Origin: a bacterium
GTDB lineage: Bacteria > Acidobacteriota > Thermoanaerobaculia > Multivoradales > JAHEKO01
Direction of reading: 5' to 3'
NCBI GenBank assembly: GCA_024224155.1
Contig: JAAENP010000402.1
Coordinates: 1 to 33,485 of the forward strand
DNA: 33,485 nucleotides
The notes beneath the pieces are model-generated. The model ran no database searches and had not been told where the DNA came from. It saw only the letters and a program-made list of their open reading frames with translations. A program made the translations under genes and the position numbers. Below, piece after piece: positions 11,430 to 28,046 of this stretch. The stretch's first letter is position 1, and each line of letters opens with the position of its first letter.

Positions 11430-11654
11430 GTGTCTGCGCACTTCGACGAGCAGCACTACGGCTTTTGGCGCTGCGATGAATGCGGCCGAACATTGAGCGC
11501 GGTCGCGTCACCGAACATCGTCGAAGCACAGCTCCCACCGCCGTGGCGCGAGGTTTACGTCGAGACGCACATCGGCGCGTTTCACTGCTGTCGTGATCAA
11601 TGCGAGCTGGACCTGCGCTTGCGCGTTGCGAAAGACGCAAACGCAGGTCCGTGA
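11430..11654 (+). CDS. Small zinc-ribbon protein at the end of the + strand block
   Basis: 74 residues starting at GTG 11430. A C-x-x-C knuckle (CDEC, residues 15-18) and a later CCRDQC give four well-placed cysteines, as in zinc ribbons. The N-terminal FDEQHYGFWRCDECGR resembles small phage zinc proteins. Its stop (11652-11654) ends one base before repeat array 1 begins, so this is the last gene of the rightward block. Function unknown. Confidence 0.55.
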   Translation: MSAHFDEQHYGFWRCDECGRTLSAVASPNIVEAQLPPPWREVYVETHIGAFHCCRDQCELDLRLRVAKDANAGP

Positions 11655-11655
11655 C

Positions 11656-12006
11656 GGCTCGCTTGGCGCCAACGGGTGTCTAAGATAGCACGGCTCGCTC
11701 GATTGAAATGGGTGACTACGTTTCGTCGGCTCGCTATTTGAACGGGTGGCTACTCGGCTTCGGCTCGCTTCGAGTCCATGGGTGTCTATTGTCCGTCGGC
11801 TCGCTAAACCCATGTGGGTGTCTCCAAACCTTTGGCTCGCTCCGCAAGGGTGGGTGCCTCCGATTGCACGGCTCGCTTGGTGGGCAATGAACGGCGCGCT
11901 ACGTTTTACCGGGTGACTGCAGTTATACGGCTCGCTCTTTACCGCGGGTGTCTGCTTGTTTCGGCGCGCTTCCTGGTCTCGGATGCTTGTCCTGATACGG
12001 CGCGCT
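11656..12006. repeat. TIGR-like array 1 (about 10 units, 36-nt period)
   Basis: GGCTCGCT or GGCGCGCT occurs at 11656, 11692, 11728, 11762, 11798, 11834, 11870, 11893, 11929, 11963 and 11999. GGGTGTCT-type motifs lie midway at 11674, 11710, 11744, 11780, 11816, 11852, 11911, 11946 and 11981. Each 8-mer is followed by about 10 variable bases. One unit (11870-11893) has lost 13 bases and its middle motif. The 8-mers alternate, so one 36-nt unit has two different repeats and two different spacers, as in TIGR arrays whose dual-spacer guide RNAs serve Tas proteins. It fills the gap between convergent genes. No protein-coding role is likely because 8- and 9-base spacers break any frame. Confidence 0.85.
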
Positions 12007-12793: not shown

Positions 12794-13032
12794 CGTACGA
12801 CTGGTATCGGCATGATGACGGTCGAGTCGTGTGACTCGGTGATGACGTCGCCGTTTTCACAGAGACAGCCGATGCTGTTCCGCTCCTTCATGCGCGAGTG
12901 TCGCGTCTCACAGATGGTGGCGCACGCTTCGTCCATCGAGACCTCGGCGTAGTAAATGCCGAATGGCAGCGAGACGAGCAGCAAAACTATGCCGCCTATG
13001 ATCAACCGAAGAACCCACTTTTCCGCCTTCAT
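12790..13032 (-). CDS. Small membrane protein with extracytoplasmic Cys domain
   Basis: 80 residues. Lysines at the N-terminus are followed by one hydrophobic helix (LRLIIGGIVLLLVSLPFGIYY, about residues 8-28). The remainder contains four cysteines (EACATIC, GCLC) that are well placed for disulfides outside the membrane. It overlaps both neighbours by 4 bases. With the lipoprotein it may form an envelope-facing set; function unknown. Confidence 0.55.
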   Translation of the reverse strand: MKAEKWVLRLIIGGIVLLLVSLPFGIYYAEVSMDEACATICETRHSRMKERNSIGCLCENGDVITESHDSTVIMPIPVVR

Positions 13033-14024
13033 CGCGCGGCCCCCTCGACCTCTTCTTCGACCTCGATCTCTTCCTCGACCTCGACGCGGTCACCTTCCAG
13101 CTCGGCGATGCGGAGCTTGAGCGAACGCAGCTCCTGGGCGACCTCAGCGTCGGCGACGGCCATCTCCTCTTCGGTGTACTCGCCCTCGACGTTCTCGCCG
13201 ATCTTCGCGAGCTTCGTCAGGTGTTTGCGCATCTTGTTGAGCCTCGGTCCGAGGAGCGTGAACGACGACGCGGTCATCTGCAGCTGACACGCCTTGCCGA
13301 TGAGCCGGCCTTGCGGGATGACGTTCGTCTGACTGACGCCGGTGTGCAGCATCATGGCGACCAGGAGTTTGGCGATCTCTCGGCCGTCCTCGCTCTCGAG
13401 CGCGAGCTGCACAGCGGGGACGTCGCTGGCCAGCTCCCGAGCGATGTCGACGAGGACCTCGCCGGCCTCGTTGGCTGCTGCGAGCTGAAGGCCCGCACCG
13501 ATGGCGCCTCCGACTTCACGCGCCTGCGCTTTCAGCTTGCCCTTGCGCGTGTACAGGATTTCGTCTTCGTCTTGTTCTCTGGTCATGGTTTCCTCCGAGG
13601 CGATGACGCCTATTGTTTCTAAATCTGCGATTACGCCGCCAATGGTGACGGCGTTGATTTCGATGTTGCTGGCGTCGGGGTCAGCGTAAGCAACTTGGAG
13701 CGACTGTGCGCGGTGGATGAACTTGATTTGCGTCGTCGACTTGCCGTCTCCGTAGCGGTCATCTTCGTACATCCACACGTCGTACTCTTCGTAAAACTTC
13801 GGCGCTGTTTTGTTGTGGCGCGTGCAGTCAGGACAGCGCAGCGCGAGATCACGCGCGGCGACCGACCACTCTGGTGGTGTGTAGCGAAACGGGTAGCGGC
13901 TGATTTCGTGTGTCGCCGTCGCGTGCTGTCCGCACACAACGCATACGCACGGCTTAGTCGGCAGCGTCGATGGACAGAACGGTCTCTCGTAGAGAAATCC
14001 GCGTTCGTCGCCGGATTGTGTCAT
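13029..14024 (-). CDS. Zinc-finger protein with long helical C-terminus; internal start possible
   Basis: 331 residues from ATG 14024 behind the stereotyped leader GGAGACCTGACCA. Residues 25-80 hold two knuckles (CVVC and CPDC) around a conserved H/E stretch (ATHEISRYPF), reminiscent of HNH-type zinc cores but without a clear HNH. The second half is helical, ending in a Glu/Val-rich coiled coil (VEEEIEVEEEVEG). Within the frame, a perfect GGAGGAAACC precedes ATG 13586 and would give a 185-residue product starting MTREQDEDEI. It may therefore make two products, or be a fusion of two genes. Confidence 0.6.
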   Translation of the reverse strand: MTQSGDERGFLYERPFCPSTLPTKPCVCVVCGQHATATHEISRYPFRYTPPEWSVAARDLALRCPDCTRHNKTAPKFYEEYDVWMYEDDRYGDGKSTTQIKFIHRAQSLQVAYADPDASNIEINAVTIGGVIADLETIGVIASEETMTREQDEDEILYTRKGKLKAQAREVGGAIGAGLQLAAANEAGEVLVDIARELASDVPAVQLALESEDGREIAKLLVAMMLHTGVSQTNVIPQGRLIGKACQLQMTASSFTLLGPRLNKMRKHLTKLAKIGENVEGEYTEEEMAVADAEVAQELRSLKLRIAELEGDRVEVEEEIEVEEEVEGAAR

Positions 14025-14037
14025 TGGTCAGGTCTCC

Positions 14038-14247
14038 TCATACGAACACGCCGTAGCGGCGCAGAATGGATTTCAGGTTCTTCAGGGATCGATATTCGCT
14101 CGGCGTCTTCGGGATGAAGATGACCGGGATGTTGGGGTTGGGTGCGACGGCTTTGTAGTGTCCGCCCTTTCCGAGCGTCACCGTCCAGCCGAGTCGAGTT
14201 AGGTCCTTGACGAGGCGCTTGACCTCACGCTGCGCGCCGCGGTTCAT
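14038..14247 (-). CDS. HicA-like mRNA interferase toxin candidate
   Basis: 69 residues. The sequence follows the small dsRBD-like HicA fold: an N-terminal helix (REVKRLVKDLTRLGW), a glycine-rich strand with the key histidine (GKGGHYK, H30) and a second strand with a Pro (IPVIFIPKTP), then a last helix (SLKNLKSILRRYGV). HicA toxins cleave mRNA ribosome-independently. The upstream gene (4-base overlap) encodes an XRE-type regulator rather than a HicB, a variant but plausible antitoxin. It could also be a HicA-fold RNA-binding protein without toxicity. Confidence 0.6.
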   Translation of the reverse strand: MNRGAQREVKRLVKDLTRLGWTVTLGKGGHYKAVAPNPNIPVIFIPKTPSEYRSLKNLKSILRRYGVFV

Positions 14248-14507
14248 TCGAGCTGATCCCAGATGGTCTCAGCTGCGCGGAGCACACTCGACGGAACGAG
14301 GCCGTGCCCTTCGTAAATCTGCCAAAGCGTTTCGACAGAGACGTCGCACGCGCCTCGCTCGATGCGGCTGAGCATCGCCTGCGTGATACCGGCGCGCTCT
14401 GCGAAGACGCGCTGCGAAGCCTTCTGTTTCTTTCGGAAAGCGTGAATCACGCCGCCGAGAACCTCCGCGAAAGTCACCTCGGTAGTCTGCTTTTTTGTTC
14501 GTCCCAT
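14244..14507 (-). CDS. XRE-family helix-turn-helix regulator / antitoxin
   Basis: 87 residues. Residues 17-60 form a typical lambda-Cro/XRE fold with SQRVFAERAGITQAMLSRIE as the HTH. Starting at ATG 14507 behind GGAGAACCTGACCA, it overlaps the HicA-like gene, so it probably serves as antitoxin and autoregulator of that pair. As an alternative it may be the immunity or early regulator of the phage. No inducer domain is present. Confidence 0.75.
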   Translation of the reverse strand: MGRTKKQTTEVTFAEVLGGVIHAFRKKQKASQRVFAERAGITQAMLSRIERGACDVSVETLWQIYEGHGLVPSSVLRAAETIWDQLE

Positions 14508-14529
14508 TGGTCAGGTTCTCCTTGTTGGT

Positions 14530-15411
14530 TCATTCGTCTTCGGACCGGAACATCTGTCCCAGCTGCTTTCGCAGCTCGGCTTCACGCTCCGGCCTGGCCT
14601 CACTCACGTAGCCGAGTGTGGTGTTGATGCTCTTGTGTCCGAGGAGCTGCTGGACGGCCGGCAAGTCTTCGGTGAGTCGGAGCGCTTGAACGGCGACGGT
14701 GCGCCGGATGCGGTGTGTGCGATGCGGGCCGGGAATACCGAGGTCCTTGCCGAGCTTTTTGAGCCGTCGGTTGACGGCCATGTAAGCCGCGTCGCTGCTC
14801 AGCGGTGAGCCATCGCCGTTGGGCGCGACGAGCCAAGCTACGGTGCTCGCGTGGACACCCTCAAACGCGCTGTAGAGGCGCTTCCACGGCCATCTGGTGC
14901 CTTCGGTGTAGATGAGGCGGTCGTCACCACCTTTTTGCTCGATGGTGATGACATTGCGGTCCAGACCATCGCGCAGCCGGCGTCGACTGAGACGAAGGAG
15001 ATCGCCCACCCGAAGCCCTGTGACCACCATCAGCTCGATGACGCGCGCTGGAGTGCTGTCGTCCTCGCGAATGGCCACCCAGAGCCGCTTCCAGTCCTTG
15101 TCGGCGTAGCTCTTCTGCTGGCGCTTTTTACGGCCCTGACGGGCCCTGCGACGCTCCAGCGGCGTCTTGGGTGGGGGCGCGGCCAGAACGGCGTCCATGC
15201 CCTTTCTGAGCCAGCTCATGGGTTCGACGTCGAGGTCGTCGAAGTAAAACTCCAGGCGCCGGACCGAGGCCCTGAGGCGCCGCGGAGGGTCCTTCCCTTC
15301 ACGAAGCCACGTGAGCAGCTGCGTGGTGTCTTGAAGGGTGCGCCGGATGGTCGACTGACGAAAGCCGGACCGGCGCATCCATTGTTCAAGGTCGTCGATG
15401 AAATCATTCAT
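14530..15411 (-). CDS. Tyrosine recombinase / integrase
   Basis: 293 residues. Residues 1-60 look like a SAM-like core-binding domain, followed by a basic linker (RRARQGRKKRQQK). The catalytic domain carries the family set: R134 in TGLRVGDLL, K160, H233-x-x-R236 (HRIRR), H259 in LLGHKS and nucleophile Y268 in TTLGYV. It is complete and expected to be active for phage integration, excision or dimer resolution. The base directly upstream of the ATG lies in a degenerate repeat unit (15412-15419) of array 2 instead of a standard Shine-Dalgarno site. No attachment site was identified. Confidence 0.9.
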   Translation of the reverse strand: MNDFIDDLEQWMRRSGFRQSTIRRTLQDTTQLLTWLREGKDPPRRLRASVRRLEFYFDDLDVEPMSWLRKGMDAVLAAPPPKTPLERRRARQGRKKRQQKSYADKDWKRLWVAIREDDSTPARVIELMVVTGLRVGDLLRLSRRRLRDGLDRNVITIEQKGGDDRLIYTEGTRWPWKRLYSAFEGVHASTVAWLVAPNGDGSPLSSDAAYMAVNRRLKKLGKDLGIPGPHRTHRIRRTVAVQALRLTEDLPAVQQLLGHKSINTTLGYVSEARPEREAELRKQLGQMFRSEDE

Positions 15412-15429: not shown

Positions 15430-15852
15430 GGCTCGCTTCCCTGGAACGGGTGTCTGTGGGGGAGAGGCTCGCTATGAAGGAACGGGTGGTTTGTACAGGA
15501 CGGCTCGCTCGCGTGGGATGGGTGTCTCGTGTGCAGCGGCGCGCTCGGATTTGATGGACGTCTGCTGATGTGCGGCTCGCTTGCATATAACGGGTGGCTT
15601 GATGCTTACAGCACGCTTGGTTTTGTTGGGTGTCGAATAACTTACAGCTCGCTTGTGATCGACGGGTGTCTTTTGAAGAGCGGCGCGCTCCAGCCGATCG
15701 GGTGTCTGTATGCCAAAAGGCGCGCTCGGCTCTATTGGGTGTCTGGAGCAACTCGGCTCGCTAACACACAGCGGGTGTCTAGTCGGTTCCGGCTCGCTCG
15801 CAGCCTGCGGGTGTCTCTACATTGCCGGCGCGCTGCTTCCTTGTGGGTGTCT
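15430..15852. repeat. TIGR-like array 2 (12 units, 36-nt period)
   Basis: Twelve GGCTCGCT-type motifs (15430, 15466, 15502, 15538, 15574, 15610, 15646, 15682, 15719, 15755, 15791, 15827) alternate with twelve GGGTGTCT-type motifs (15448 to 15845). Spacing is regular at 18 bases, with one 11-base spacer after 15700. Variants include GGCGCGCT, AGCACGCT, AGCTCGCT, GGGTGGCT and GGACGTCT. A degenerate half motif at 15412-15419 reaches the integrase start codon. On the right, the last spacer overlaps the stop codon of the Tas-like gene. All 12 spacers before the second motif end in a pyrimidine. In the - strand sense it lies directly downstream of the Tas-like gene. Confidence 0.9.
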
Positions 15853-15859
15853 TCCTTTC

Positions 15860-16660
15860 CTAGGCATGATGCTTTCGGCCCAGGTACTCCTCCGCGTAGG
15901 AAGGCCGGACCGGGAGTCCTTCGAGCGTGCGCCACGTGGTGTGCAGCTCGGCGAGGAAGAGCTTGACCATGACGCGTCGTGCGTCGCGCTCTCGATGCGC
16001 ATCGCTCTTTCCCCACGGCGCAGGTCCGCCCTTGCCCTTGCAGTTGAGACAGACGGCGCCCTTGATCTTGCCGGTGCCGGCGCACGCCATGCACTCGTCG
16101 AGGAGCTGATTGCGGCGTCGGTTCTTTCGGCCGTCGTAAATGTCCTTCCACGGCGACTTGGCCTTGATGAGGCAGCCGGCGAGCACCTCGACCATCTTGG
16201 CTTTGAGGAACGGGTTGTACCCGCACTTCTCGCCCTTGCGCCGTCGGTCCGACTGGCCGTTGACGACCGCAAGCCCGCAATACTTCCACACGCTGCTCAC
16301 GGTCGGCGCGCGATGGACGTTGATGTAGGCGATGAGCACGCCGCCCATCGTCGGTCCGACGCCCTTCTGGTTTTTGATCCACGCGTTCCAGATGGGCTCG
16401 CACTTCAGCAGACGCTTGACCTCCTTGAGCGCGTCCTTCTCGACGGCTTCGAGGCCCGTGCTGAGCTTGCCGACGAAGACGCGGTCCGCCTCGTCCAGCT
16501 CGATGGTGTCGACGCCCGCACTCGTTCGGTTGCCCGACTGAATGCGTAGCTTCTGTAGGTCGTAGAGCAGCCCCACCGCGTGACGAATCCGGATTTGGTT
16601 CTCCGTCAGGTCACTGTGATCGGGCTTCGGGTTTCGCTTCTCGGTTGTCGCTTCTTCCAT
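15860..16660 (-). CDS. Tas-like protein (Nop / IS110 C-terminal-like RNA-binding domain, no nuclease)
   Basis: 266 residues. Residues 18-98 form long helices (coiled-coil-like). A hairpin with GVGPTMGGVLIAYI (100-113) and APTVSSVWKYCGL (118-130) follows, then YNPFLKAKMVEVLAGCLIK and SPWKDIY (148-175). This signature is that of the C-terminal domain of IS110/IS1111 transposases and of Nop-type RNA-binding domains, which Tas proteins share. A Cys4 element (C190, C193, C204, C207) interrupts the last part, then a basic helix (residues 221-244). There is no DEDD/RuvC domain of IS110 and no HNH, so it matches a nuclease-less Tas (TasA type). It is flanked on both sides by 36-nt arrays. The start follows GGAGACCTGACCC. 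Confidence 0.8.
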   Translation of the reverse strand: MEEATTEKRNPKPDHSDLTENQIRIRHAVGLLYDLQKLRIQSGNRTSAGVDTIELDEADRVFVGKLSTGLEAVEKDALKEVKRLLKCEPIWNAWIKNQKGVGPTMGGVLIAYINVHRAPTVSSVWKYCGLAVVNGQSDRRRKGEKCGYNPFLKAKMVEVLAGCLIKAKSPWKDIYDGRKNRRRNQLLDECMACAGTGKIKGAVCLNCKGKGGPAPWGKSDAHRERDARRVMVKLFLAELHTTWRTLEGLPVRPSYAEEYLGRKHHA

Positions 16661-16687
16661 GGGTCAGGTCTCCTTGTTGTTGGTTTT

Positions 16688-17043
16688 GGCTCGCTGAAAT
16701 GGTGCGGGTGTCTTGCGTCGAATGGCTCGCTGAAGTGGTGCGGGTTTCTCGCATCAAATGGCTCGCTCGCATTTGGCGGGTGACTGACTTTCCCCGGCTC
16801 GCTGAACAACCACGGGTGTCTATTGTCGTAGGGCTCGCTAAGTTCATGTGGGTGTCTCCAATGCTTCGGCTTCGGCTCGCTTTAGGAGAACGGGTGGCTG
16901 CGGTAACGAGGCGCGCTCGAAAAAGATGGGCGCCTGCTCGGTTTCGGCGCGCTGGGGGTTTTCGGTGGGCTGGCAAGCCGCGGCTCGCTCGATGCATCCG
17001 GGTGTCTGGTAAACCATGGCTCGCTGCGCTTCAACGGGTGTCT
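16688..17043. repeat. TIGR-like array 3 (10 units, 36-nt period)
   Basis: GGCTCGCT-type motifs lie at 16688, 16724, 16760, 16796, 16832, 16874, 16910, 16946, 16982 and 17018; GGGTGTCT-type motifs lie at 16706, 16742, 16778, 16814, 16850, 16892, 16928, 16964, 17000 and 17036. A degenerate GGCTACGT at 17054 contains the stop codon of the next gene. One spacer (16858-16873) is 16 bases long through a 6-base GGCTTC duplication. The first two units are near copies. In the - strand sense the array lies upstream of the Tas-like gene, 27 bases before its start codon, so the array, the gene and array 2 could be one transcript. Confidence 0.9.
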
Positions 17044-17055
17044 GGGGACGTGTGG

Positions 17056-17250
17056 CTACGTTGGTCTGCGGTGCTTCGGGGGGAAGCGCACCTCGGGGAA
17101 GGCTTGGCGCAGACGCTCCGCAACGTGATCGTGGGCGAGGATTGACTCTGCTTCGGTCGCCTCGTAGGTTTCGGCTTCCTTCACGAAGCGATTGACGATC
17201 TTGGCGACGCAGTCGCGCATGAGGTCTGGATCGATTCCGTCAGGCATCAT
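17056..17250 (-). CDS. Small helical acidic protein
   Basis: About 64 residues. Three consecutive ATGs (17253, 17250, 17247) follow GAGGAG; the middle one is listed because spacing improves from the first to the third. The sequence has helices (RDCVAKIVNRFVKEAETYEA, HVAERLRQAF) and a basic Pro-rich end. It overlaps the upstream gene's stop. Its TAG stop lies inside a degenerate repeat of array 3. Function unknown. Confidence 0.5.
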   Translation of the reverse strand: MMPDGIDPDLMRDCVAKIVNRFVKEAETYEATEAESILAHDHVAERLRQAFPEVRFPPKHRRPT

Positions 17251-26404: not shown

Positions 26405-26629
26405 ATGAAGAAGATGATCTACGCGCCTGAGGGGCTCTTGGGGATCGACGCGTTGGCGCTGCCGCCCGAAGAGGTTGAGGTGACCGAACACGGCGAGCGC
26501 GTTTCGGTAATCCGCACGCCGCTGACCGAAAACTGCTTCATCAACCTCGCGCGCAAGCGCTACGGCTATCCGCTGCTCAAAGAAATCGAGCGCGAGGTGC
26601 TCACCGAGTACCTCAAGCCCATTCAATGA
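26405..26629 (+). CDS. Small hypothetical protein
   Basis: 74 residues from ATG 26405, behind GAGG. A longer form from GTG 26357, overlapping the upstream stop as GTGA, is also possible. The sequence MKKMIYAPEGLLGIDALALP, then EEVEVTEHGERVSVIRTP, and a helix (LLKEIEREVLTEYLKPIQ) look like a compact alpha/beta unit. It overlaps the receiver-like gene by 4 bases. No family recognised. Confidence 0.5.
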   Translation: MKKMIYAPEGLLGIDALALPPEEVEVTEHGERVSVIRTPLTENCFINLARKRYGYPLLKEIEREVLTEYLKPIQ

Positions 26630-27009
26630 AGACGATCCTCGTTCTCGAAGACAACGAGATGCGCATCCGCTGGCTTCAGCGGCTGATGAGGCGGCGCGCC
26701 GACGTGCTGTGGACCGACAACGTGCTCGACTTCCTCGACACGGTGGAGATCGACCCAGACCTCATCCTCATGGACCACGATTTGGGCCAGGAGCTAGACG
26801 GTCGGGACGCAGCAAAAGCGCTCTACACGAGCGCACCCATCATCGTGTGGAGCGCGAACACCCTGCGCGGTCCGCAGATGGTCGACATCCTCGAGCAGAG
26901 GGGCTTGGACGTCTTCCCGATCTGGCTGCCGTTCGGCTCGCCGGGACTGCCGCTCATCATCCAGACGACGCTGCGCAATCGCGAGCTACCGCAGCTCCGC
27001 GGCGTTTGA
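26626..27009 (+). CDS. Receiver-like protein (cREC type)
   Basis: 127 residues with a response-regulator-like Rossmann fold: TILVLEDNEMRIRWL (residues 3-17) with acidic E8/D9, and LILMDHDLG (46-54) where D50 takes the phospho-acceptor position and is followed by His-Asp. The MDHDLG box, in place of the usual D-x-M-P, is that of the cyclic-phosphate-processing receiver (cREC) group predicted to act on RNA 2',3'-cyclic phosphate ends. No output domain or histidine kinase is present. I infer an RNA-end-processing role, possibly in RNA repair. Confidence 0.65.
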   Translation: MKTILVLEDNEMRIRWLQRLMRRRADVLWTDNVLDFLDTVEIDPDLILMDHDLGQELDGRDAAKALYTSAPIIVWSANTLRGPQMVDILEQRGLDVFPIWLPFGSPGLPLIIQTTLRNRELPQLRGV

Positions 27010-27716: not shown

Positions 27717-28046
27717 TTATCGCCCTTCCAGAGCCCAGGCCGTTTCTTCGGCCGCAACGTGGCGTCGGAGCAGCCTGACGAGAATCGCAGCAGCCATAAC
27801 AGGATCGGCAGCGAGGCCCTCGAGCGCGATTCGATGAAAGACAGGGTGCTCTTCGCAGTGACAGCCGCTCACTTCGTACGCCTCTTCCATCGCCGCGTGC
27901 GCCGGGAGGTAGTTGACCACGTGACTGAGCAACGCGCGGGCGTCGCCGGCCGAGCCCGTCGCATCGAACCTGTCGATTTTCCGCAGCAGCGCGCGGTGAT
28001 CTGCACGCAGCTTGGCGTAGACCGCTGCTGTCCGCCGAGGCTGCAC
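27717..28046 (-). CDS. Hemerythrin-like protein candidate
   Basis: 109 residues from GTG 28046. The spacing of His and Glu fits the four-helix HHE fold: DHRALLRKIDRF, then LLSHVVNYLPAHAAMEEAY, HCEEHPVFHR and LLRRHVAAEETAW. Hemerythrin-like domains bind a di-iron centre for oxygen or redox sensing. A phage copy is unusual and it may be host-derived. Cysteines in GCHCEEH could also bind metal. Moderate certainty only, because helix boundaries cannot be tested here. Confidence 0.5.
   Translation of the reverse strand: MQPRRTAAVYAKLRADHRALLRKIDRFDATGSAGDARALLSHVVNYLPAHAAMEEAYEVSGCHCEEHPVFHRIALEGLAADPVMAAAILVRLLRRHVAAEETAWALEGR

Follow-up and report, generated by a model that had tools for sequence, protein, structure and literature searches.

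In this study, we describe a TIGR-TasA locus in a stretch of 33,485 nucleotides (nt) from a bacterium of the Acidobacteriota (Thermoanaerobaculia; Multivoradales; JAHEKO01), contig JAAENP010000402.1 of assembly GCA_024224155.1, which is called the window in the following. The locus comprises tasA, a gene for a Nop-domain protein without a nuclease domain, and arrays in which two repeats alternate with two short spacers, A and B; it is a sound new member of the TIGR-TasA systems. The major result concerns the family as a whole: the ninth bases of the two spacers of a guide, A9 and B9, covary as Watson-Crick partners. This covariation is new relative to the earlier note on this DNA, which had been made from the sequence alone, and it differs from the description by Faure et al. 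(2025, Science, PMC12045711): they present spacers A and B as lacking obvious covariation and unlikely to overlap, with gaps of 0-2 base pairs (bp) tolerated. The simplest explanation of this statistical result would be that both spacers share the central base pair of the target. We hold it to be moderately probable that a nuclease-free TIGR system reads a 17-bp duplex with its centre captured twice, that the units are selected as pairs against real, probably coding DNA, and that the covariation is a fossil record of this selection, the arrays of the window included. That the window carries, on a phage-like element, a TIGR-TasA system acting as a guided, non-cutting block on 17-bp targets appears likely.

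Covariation between the two spacers of a guide

In arrays 1 and 2 of the window, the repeats AGCGAGCC and AGNNACCC alternate every ~18 nt, giving a 36-nt period, and both arrays open with a truncated copy of AGCGAGCC that reaches into the end of the gene before the array. AGCGAGCC is therefore the edge repeat and AGNNACCC the loop repeat, and the guide unit reads edge-A-loop-B-edge. To the window we added 265 loci, and the parsing of all of them gave 2,731 units, 2,410 of them distinct, with 208 loci of the same repeat type. Within a unit, the purine contents of A and B are anticorrelated (r -0.136, reached by 0 of 1,000 within-locus shuffles), i. e. a purine-rich B goes together with a pyrimidine-rich A; between B and the A of the next unit, across the edge repeat, r is -0.011. 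Independently of the truncated array ends, the anticorrelation supports A-loop-B as the unit, with A and B describing opposite strands.

Of 2,390 units, 526 have A9 and B9 as Watson-Crick partners (355±13 expected); once near-copies are removed, the count is 478 of 2,107 units (322±13 expected; 0 of 2,000 shuffles). All four Watson-Crick pairs are enriched, 1.39-1.66-fold, and the G-U combinations are depleted with ratios of observed to expected of 0.75 and 0.68. The excess is spread over the family: more Watson-Crick pairs than expected are present in 69 loci and fewer in 15, p is under 0.05 in 18 of the 125 loci with at least six units, and removal of the 15 strongest loci still leaves a z of 5.2. 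No Watson-Crick excess is seen across the edge repeat (263 of 1,894; 285±12 expected), and of the remaining pairs of positions with base 9, A9 with B6 has the largest z (3.2).

A second signal comes from the reading frame. A codon model that was trained on the long open reading frames (ORFs) of the same loci and that ignores base 9 favours exactly one base between the 8-mers of A and B (0 of 300 shuffles), as would be expected for coding targets with a shared centre. With near-copies removed, 3 of 1,000 shuffles reach this preference, as compared to 711 of 1,000 for the edge control; three spacings were tried, and the contrast among them is reached by 22 of 1,000 shuffles. As evidence for targets in coding DNA this is modest and weaker than the covariation.

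Two further properties of the units were recorded. In both spacers, purines prevail at base 9 (~74-80% over the 2,410 units), as if the repeats were 10 nt and the spacers 8 nt long, and the 32 loci without this bias have stronger A9-B9 pairing (271 of 638; 168 expected) than the rest (255 of 1,752; 188 expected). Near-copy units are more frequent than by chance: 48 pairs with at most three differences were found, as compared to 2-4 in three permutations. Their differences were first taken as codon-periodic, a proposal that was dropped as the periodicity within spacers is not significant (p 0.07-0.65, 0.12-1.0 and 0.10-0.30). The phase from A to B in these pairs gave p values of 0.005-0.025 at all thresholds save the strictest one without an informative pair, and of 0.38, 0.011 and 0.13 without base 9; it is a lead only.

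Proposed target geometry

If the target strand reads 5'-B-rc(A)-3', with rc(A) being the reverse complement of A, then A9 and B9 meet at the centre. Because they covary there, both spacers would copy the same base pair, and the natural target of the TasA family would be 17 bp long: 5'-B and rc(A), of 9 nt each, would have one base pair in common, and this central pair would be read twice, once per strand. The opposite order would bring A1 and B1 to the centre, and these bases do not covary as Watson-Crick partners (diagonal 0, z 0.55). The order 5'-B-rc(A)-3' also agrees with the 8-nt 3' overhangs reported for TasR (Faure et al. 2025, PMC12045711), according to our own derivation from these overhangs.

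In the mechanism that we propose, the arrays would be transcribed together with the genes between which they stand, their transcripts would be cut into 36-nt guides, and one guide would be carried by a TasA dimer. The two spacers, A and B, would each pair with one of the two DNA strands, and the target would be opened, bent and occupied, uncut. With ~30 guides, a single small protein may be able to block a large number of sites, which would most likely belong to competing mobile elements. Guided binding without cutting at this locus would follow by analogy with the family, and we infer the guided blocking of other mobile DNA as its role.

Several observations weigh against the 17-bp target. 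The covariation tests were chosen after inspection of the data. The purine control is not flat: successive B spacers are slightly anticorrelated (r -0.056; 20 of 1,000 shuffles). Within single spacers, codon periodicity does not reach significance (z at distance 3 of 0.4 for A and 1.9 for B). In the loci that group with TasH, A9-B9 pairing is absent (3 of 69 units; 2.7 expected). In the window itself the pairing is marginal, with 12 of 24 units without near-copies (p 0.036), 12 of 26 as parsed (95 of 2,000 shuffles, 0.048) and 12 of 30 after curation (181 of 2,000 shuffles, 0.09), so that the window alone is consistent with the pairing and only suggestive, not decisive. Moreover, searches of the window, of 821,178 host bases (14% of the assembly) and of related contigs turned up no convincing target for the guides of the window. 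The same holds for the family: 1,745 distinct units from 154 loci gave no clear excess over re-paired guides in 1.9 megabases (Mb) under the rule of one exact half and at most two mismatches in the other half, and 2,410 units searched against 2.4 Mb with 8-nt cores and spacings of -1 to 3 gave 34 exact matches (mean 28 for re-paired guides).

Seen in detail, the guides of the window have no exact match in the window outside the masked arrays, and for the B.rc(A) orientation the host sample gives 0 exact matches (0.13 expected). The other, less likely orientation has one 16-nt exact match in this sample, which is near chance (0.07 expected on average, largest 1). If the assembly is indeed that of the host, which it may not be, most guides are unlikely to target the host. 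In the larger search, one of ten classes tops all 10 shuffles (rc(A).B with spacing 1, 7 matches; mean 1.9, largest 6), and three of these seven matches are due to one guide on near-identical phages. One guide pair of the related locus L011 matches position 2677 (minus strand) of another locus, L081, at 16 of 16 bases, and L081 carries a sister TasA; since the overall counts are near chance, we do not claim this match as a target.

The arrays of the window

The earlier note had reported two arrays of 12 and 10 units, with two alternating 8-mers per 36-nt period, around a gene for a 266-residue protein, and both were found where it had placed them. Array 1 (15430..15865, minus strand, 12 units) spans from the last codons of tasA to shortly before the start of the integrase gene, and array 2 (10 units; 16688..17057, minus strand) reaches from the stop of the ORF upstream to a point shortly before the ribosome-binding site of tasA, so that the order on the minus strand is array 2, tasA, array 1. 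While the two flanking arrays of that description stand, it had overlooked a third one. Array 3 (11656..12006, minus strand) lies on the same strand, 3.4 kilobases (kb) away and 3.9 kb from tasA, past the integrase and other genes, and starts 2 nt past the stop codon of a small ORF. It has nine units with both spacers and one without a loop repeat; among the nine, there are one degenerate loop repeat and one 8-nt spacer. The three arrays together have 31 units with both spacers. With its ~9-nt spacers, its 36-nt units of two alternating repeats and two arrays that flank tas on the same strand, the locus has array features by which membership in the TIGR-Tas systems is recognized.

With at most two mismatches allowed, the window contains the edge-spacer-loop pattern 26 times, array 3 included, as compared to a mean of 0.61 and a largest value of 3 in 100 dinucleotide shuffles. 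The exact repeat pattern has 15 matches in the assembly (5.71 Mb, 576 contigs), all of them on this contig, and the reversed control has 0. The window starts at the first base of the contig and is taken to be all of it. Both repeats carry box C/D end motifs of the form AG...CC, mostly plus a purine. In the window, CC is mostly followed by G, at 18 of 26 edges and 17 of 26 loops, and A is common in the family; over 189 loci the base after CC covaries between edge and loop (rho 0.61, partial 0.57 after G+C, with shared descent left in both values).

Arrays 1 and 2 run into genes. Array 3 is followed, 5 nt past its last edge repeat, by a terminator-like 16-bp hairpin without a U-run (11609..11650, minus strand), for which an 81-nt stretch has -40.6 kcal/mol (z -4.7 against 200 shuffles) and which is not among the sites called by a terminator scan. 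The last two units of array 2 (16688-16767) are near-copies that differ in 4 of 18 spacer bases, all by transitions, which suggests that a unit was duplicated and then changed.

The TasA protein and its relatives

The 266-residue protein with the motifs GVGPTMGG and WKYCGL is encoded between arrays 1 and 2 (tasA, 15860..16660, minus strand). Its proposed identity as a Tas protein is supported by the curated TIGR-Tas model NF052498 of NCBIfam, which it matches with 153.9 bits (cut-off 100); the name of this model reads "endonuclease" although the TasA described here has no nuclease domain. The sequence search of the PDB matched only TasR (9mty, E 8e-16) and TasH (21kl, E 5e-12), and a profile of 52 sequences matched TasH (2e-69) and TasR (4e-50), followed by two IS110 transposases. 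A fold related to Nop and IS110 proteins had been expected as well, and the predicted structure (pLDDT 86.5, pTM 0.83) does not refute this expectation, with Z scores of 22.3 for TasR, ~19-21 for TasH and ~16 for IS110 recombinases; the Z score of 8.2 for archaeal Nop5 is not above the background for helical models. In the Pfam scan, Transposase_20, the family of the C-terminal domain of IS110 transposases, was the sole match above its cut-off, and no HNH, RuvC or other nuclease domain and no DEDD domain was detected, in agreement with the nuclease-less protein of the earlier note. Since the first long helix of the model begins at residue 20, there is no room for an N-terminal DEDD domain. The family profile begins at residue 62 of TasH, the protein in which the HNH domain is N-terminal (Faure et al. 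2025, PMC12045711). The ORF is intact, and the nearly invariant residues of the family are present.

As compared to TasR, TasA has a zinc-knuckle-like insertion with four cysteines (CxxCxGxG...CxxC; residues 186-216; 16013..16105, minus strand). It falls between two aligned stretches that end at residue 185 (266 of the 9mty chain) and resume at residue 217 (267 of the chain), the second stretch being weak, and gives weak matches to DnaJ and anti-TRAP. In a tree of 57 hand-picked proteins, from which IS110 sequences were left out, the protein of locus L182 is the sister of TasA (support 99), and by eye it carries the same cysteine insertion. Two close CxxC motifs, at any place, are present in 6 of 93 unique Tas proteins.

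The scan for the edge-loop-edge pattern gave at least 120 stretches in IMG/VR, where four narrower scans were added, and 28 stretches in the GTDB species genomes. The record titles of the array-bearing relatives include archaea and candidate phyla that belong to the Patescibacteria. A Tas gene is present in the available DNA at 111 of 154 array loci, eight of the 154 being the window or loci that were obtained through their Tas protein. At the 111 Tas-bearing loci, all 291 array chains, some of which overlap, are on the tas strand. The nearest neighbours of tas (132 genes, the two of the window included) are mixed phage genes without a common partner. The most common PHROG family among them is ParB-like (5 of 132), which is consistent with the link between ParB and tas reported earlier (Faure et al. 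2025, PMC12045711). Single-protein scans of IMG/VR and GTDB gave no relative, TasA was not detected in 58 related genomes, and plasmids gave no match; the family phrog_4285 has matches in 6 of 396 genomes of the phylum, the window's included, and all others are partial.

Homologues of TasA are also found in actinobacteriophages, with 75 Mycobacterium phage records among 83 phage matches. In three loci of such phages (L003, 2602-2956; L002, 2590-2863; L005, 2557-2998), we noticed by eye arrays of a stem type with inverted repeats. In phage Sorpresa, the immunity repressor and a gene for superinfection immunity are encoded close to the TasA homologue.

Genetic setting

Directly downstream of array 1, the window encodes a tyrosine recombinase of the phage integrase type (14530..15411, minus strand; Pfam Phage_integrase, E 3e-16; phrog_1/phrog_216), followed by an XRE-type helix-turn-helix regulator (14244..14507, minus strand; Pfam HTH_3, E 9e-9). 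A DUF932 protein is encoded as well, and so are three proteins that resemble endolysins: one of GH25, one of M23 and a third whose peptidoglycan-binding match is weak. The integrase, the XRE regulator, the endolysin-like proteins and DUF932 indicate a phage-like element, as had been suggested. No capsid or terminase families are among the matches listed (25 of 26 families), and head or tail families match via the M23 peptidase. Since both proximal arrays fill gaps between genes of the same strand, arrays 1 and 2 are likely co-transcribed with these genes, as far as gene order can tell.

No partner nuclease was identified in the window. Among the 39 other ORFs of the window, one gave a weak match to an HNH family (phrog_865, E 3.5e-4). 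By eye, the gene at 13029-14024 (minus strand) appears HNH-nuclease-like, with an N-terminal CxxC...HEI...CxxC...HNK motif; it has no Pfam match above cut-off, no PHROG match and no significant PDB match. An ORF for 69 amino acids (14038-14247, minus strand) shares bases with the end of the XRE gene; by eye its product resembles HicA, and the PDB sequence search gave nothing significant. The ORF may form a toxin-antitoxin pair with the XRE gene, or it may encode an RNA-acting protein in the gene run of the arrays. On the minus strand, tasA, the HNH-like gene and the XRE gene are preceded by almost the same ribosome-binding leader, GGAGACCTGACC(A/C)ATG or a form that is one base longer, at 16661-16680, 14025-14040 and 14508-14530, respectively. 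In addition, there are a receiver-like (cREC_REC) gene at 26626-27009 (plus strand) and a Hemerythrin match in one of the 39 other ORFs, by eye probably that at 27717-28046 (minus strand). Models of defence systems gave 0 matches among five proteins of the window, and no dedicated CRISPR search was made.

Discussion

The covariation of two bases as a strict Watson-Crick pair in one RNA is usually read as an RNA-RNA pair, and A9 and B9 might stabilize the folded guide and say nothing on the target. The units even have an excess of complementarity between A and B in a hairpin register (s=7), with 78 units that have at least five contiguous pairs (50±9 expected). We nevertheless consider this unlikely: the depletion of G-U combinations is unlike RNA helices, many units have two purines at A9 and B9 that are unable to pair, and the purine and codon-phase signals omit base 9 yet indicate the same arrangement. 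Moreover, in the published figure-eight A9 and B9 should, as we infer, sit near opposite protomers. Alternatively, the guides might act as regulators of the host chromosome or of genes on the element itself: repression would suit a nuclease-free binder, and the single 16-nt match in the host sample, albeit in the less likely orientation, could be such a site. With the window outside the masked arrays and the 821,178 host bases being free of exact targets in the B.rc(A) orientation, we regard such a regulatory role as quite improbable.

The tyrosine recombinase gene next to array 1 makes it tempting to see TasA as an RNA-guided helper of this integrase that bends DNA at chosen integration sites, a role that Faure et al. 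(PMC12045711) proposed from the bend of the DNA. This neighbour is, however, not conserved: a tyrosine-recombinase motif within 2 kb has three matches among 93 unique Tas loci, of which only that of the window is credible by eye, and in the profile scan the integrase family phrog_216 accounts for 2 of the 132 nearest neighbours, the window's own included. As ~30 different guides would also be many for one attachment site, such a function is highly improbable. To the idea of a decayed system, i. e. an IS110-like remnant with degenerate arrays, we give hardly any credit. The lost loop repeat in array 3, some spacers of odd length and mismatched repeats would fit it, but the intact ORF with its conserved residues, the confident fold, the lack of a match to the DEDD domain and the register kept by most units speak against decay.

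The guided, non-cutting TIGR-TasA system that we favour has its closest counterparts among the published TIGR-TasA systems such as that of Flavonifractor plautii, FpTIGR (Faure et al. 2025, Science, PMC12045711). They share the solo Nop-domain protein, the phage-like setting, the dual-repeat arrays of 36-nt period on both sides of the gene and, at arrays 1 and 2, the 5'-truncated first edge repeat. The window differs from the published description by its three arrays, one of them far from tasA, by the cysteine insertion in the Nop domain, by the G that mostly follows CC where the published box C is CCA, and by the 17-bp target with a shared central pair for which we argue. The nucleases TasH (Salicola phage CGphi29; PDB 21kl, 9w04) and TasR (PDB 9mty) share the fold and sequence of the Nop part and the logic of the arrays, whereas TasA has neither the HNH nor the RuvC domain. 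For TasR, a contiguous 18-bp target with tolerated gaps of 1-2 bp has been described, and a one-bp overlap is not among the gaps reported; the TasH-grouping loci, as stated above, differ in lacking the covariation. The IS110/IS621 bridge-RNA recombinases have the Nop-like C-terminal domain in common with TasA, and they possess a catalytic DEDD domain and use one bridge RNA rather than arrays of guides. Type IV and type V-M CRISPR systems share nuclease-free, guide-directed interference between mobile elements (Faure et al., PMC12045711), but with a different protein and without dual short spacers. Among the open-access papers listed in the literature searches, there was no further primary study on TIGR-Tas; the PDB titles include TasH structures of 2026, one of them with 'gap' DNA.

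Faure et al. (2025, PMC12045711) described genuine targets as hard to identify and the function of TasA as less apparent. The A9-B9 covariation bears on both: it suggests that natural guide pairs are chosen against contiguous duplex DNA and points to the order of the half-sites. The exact target to test and to search for would then be 17 bp instead of 18. Moreover, the covariation may help to tell functional from decayed arrays, and the actinobacteriophages with TasA homologues would provide culturable systems in which the targets of TasA may be found.
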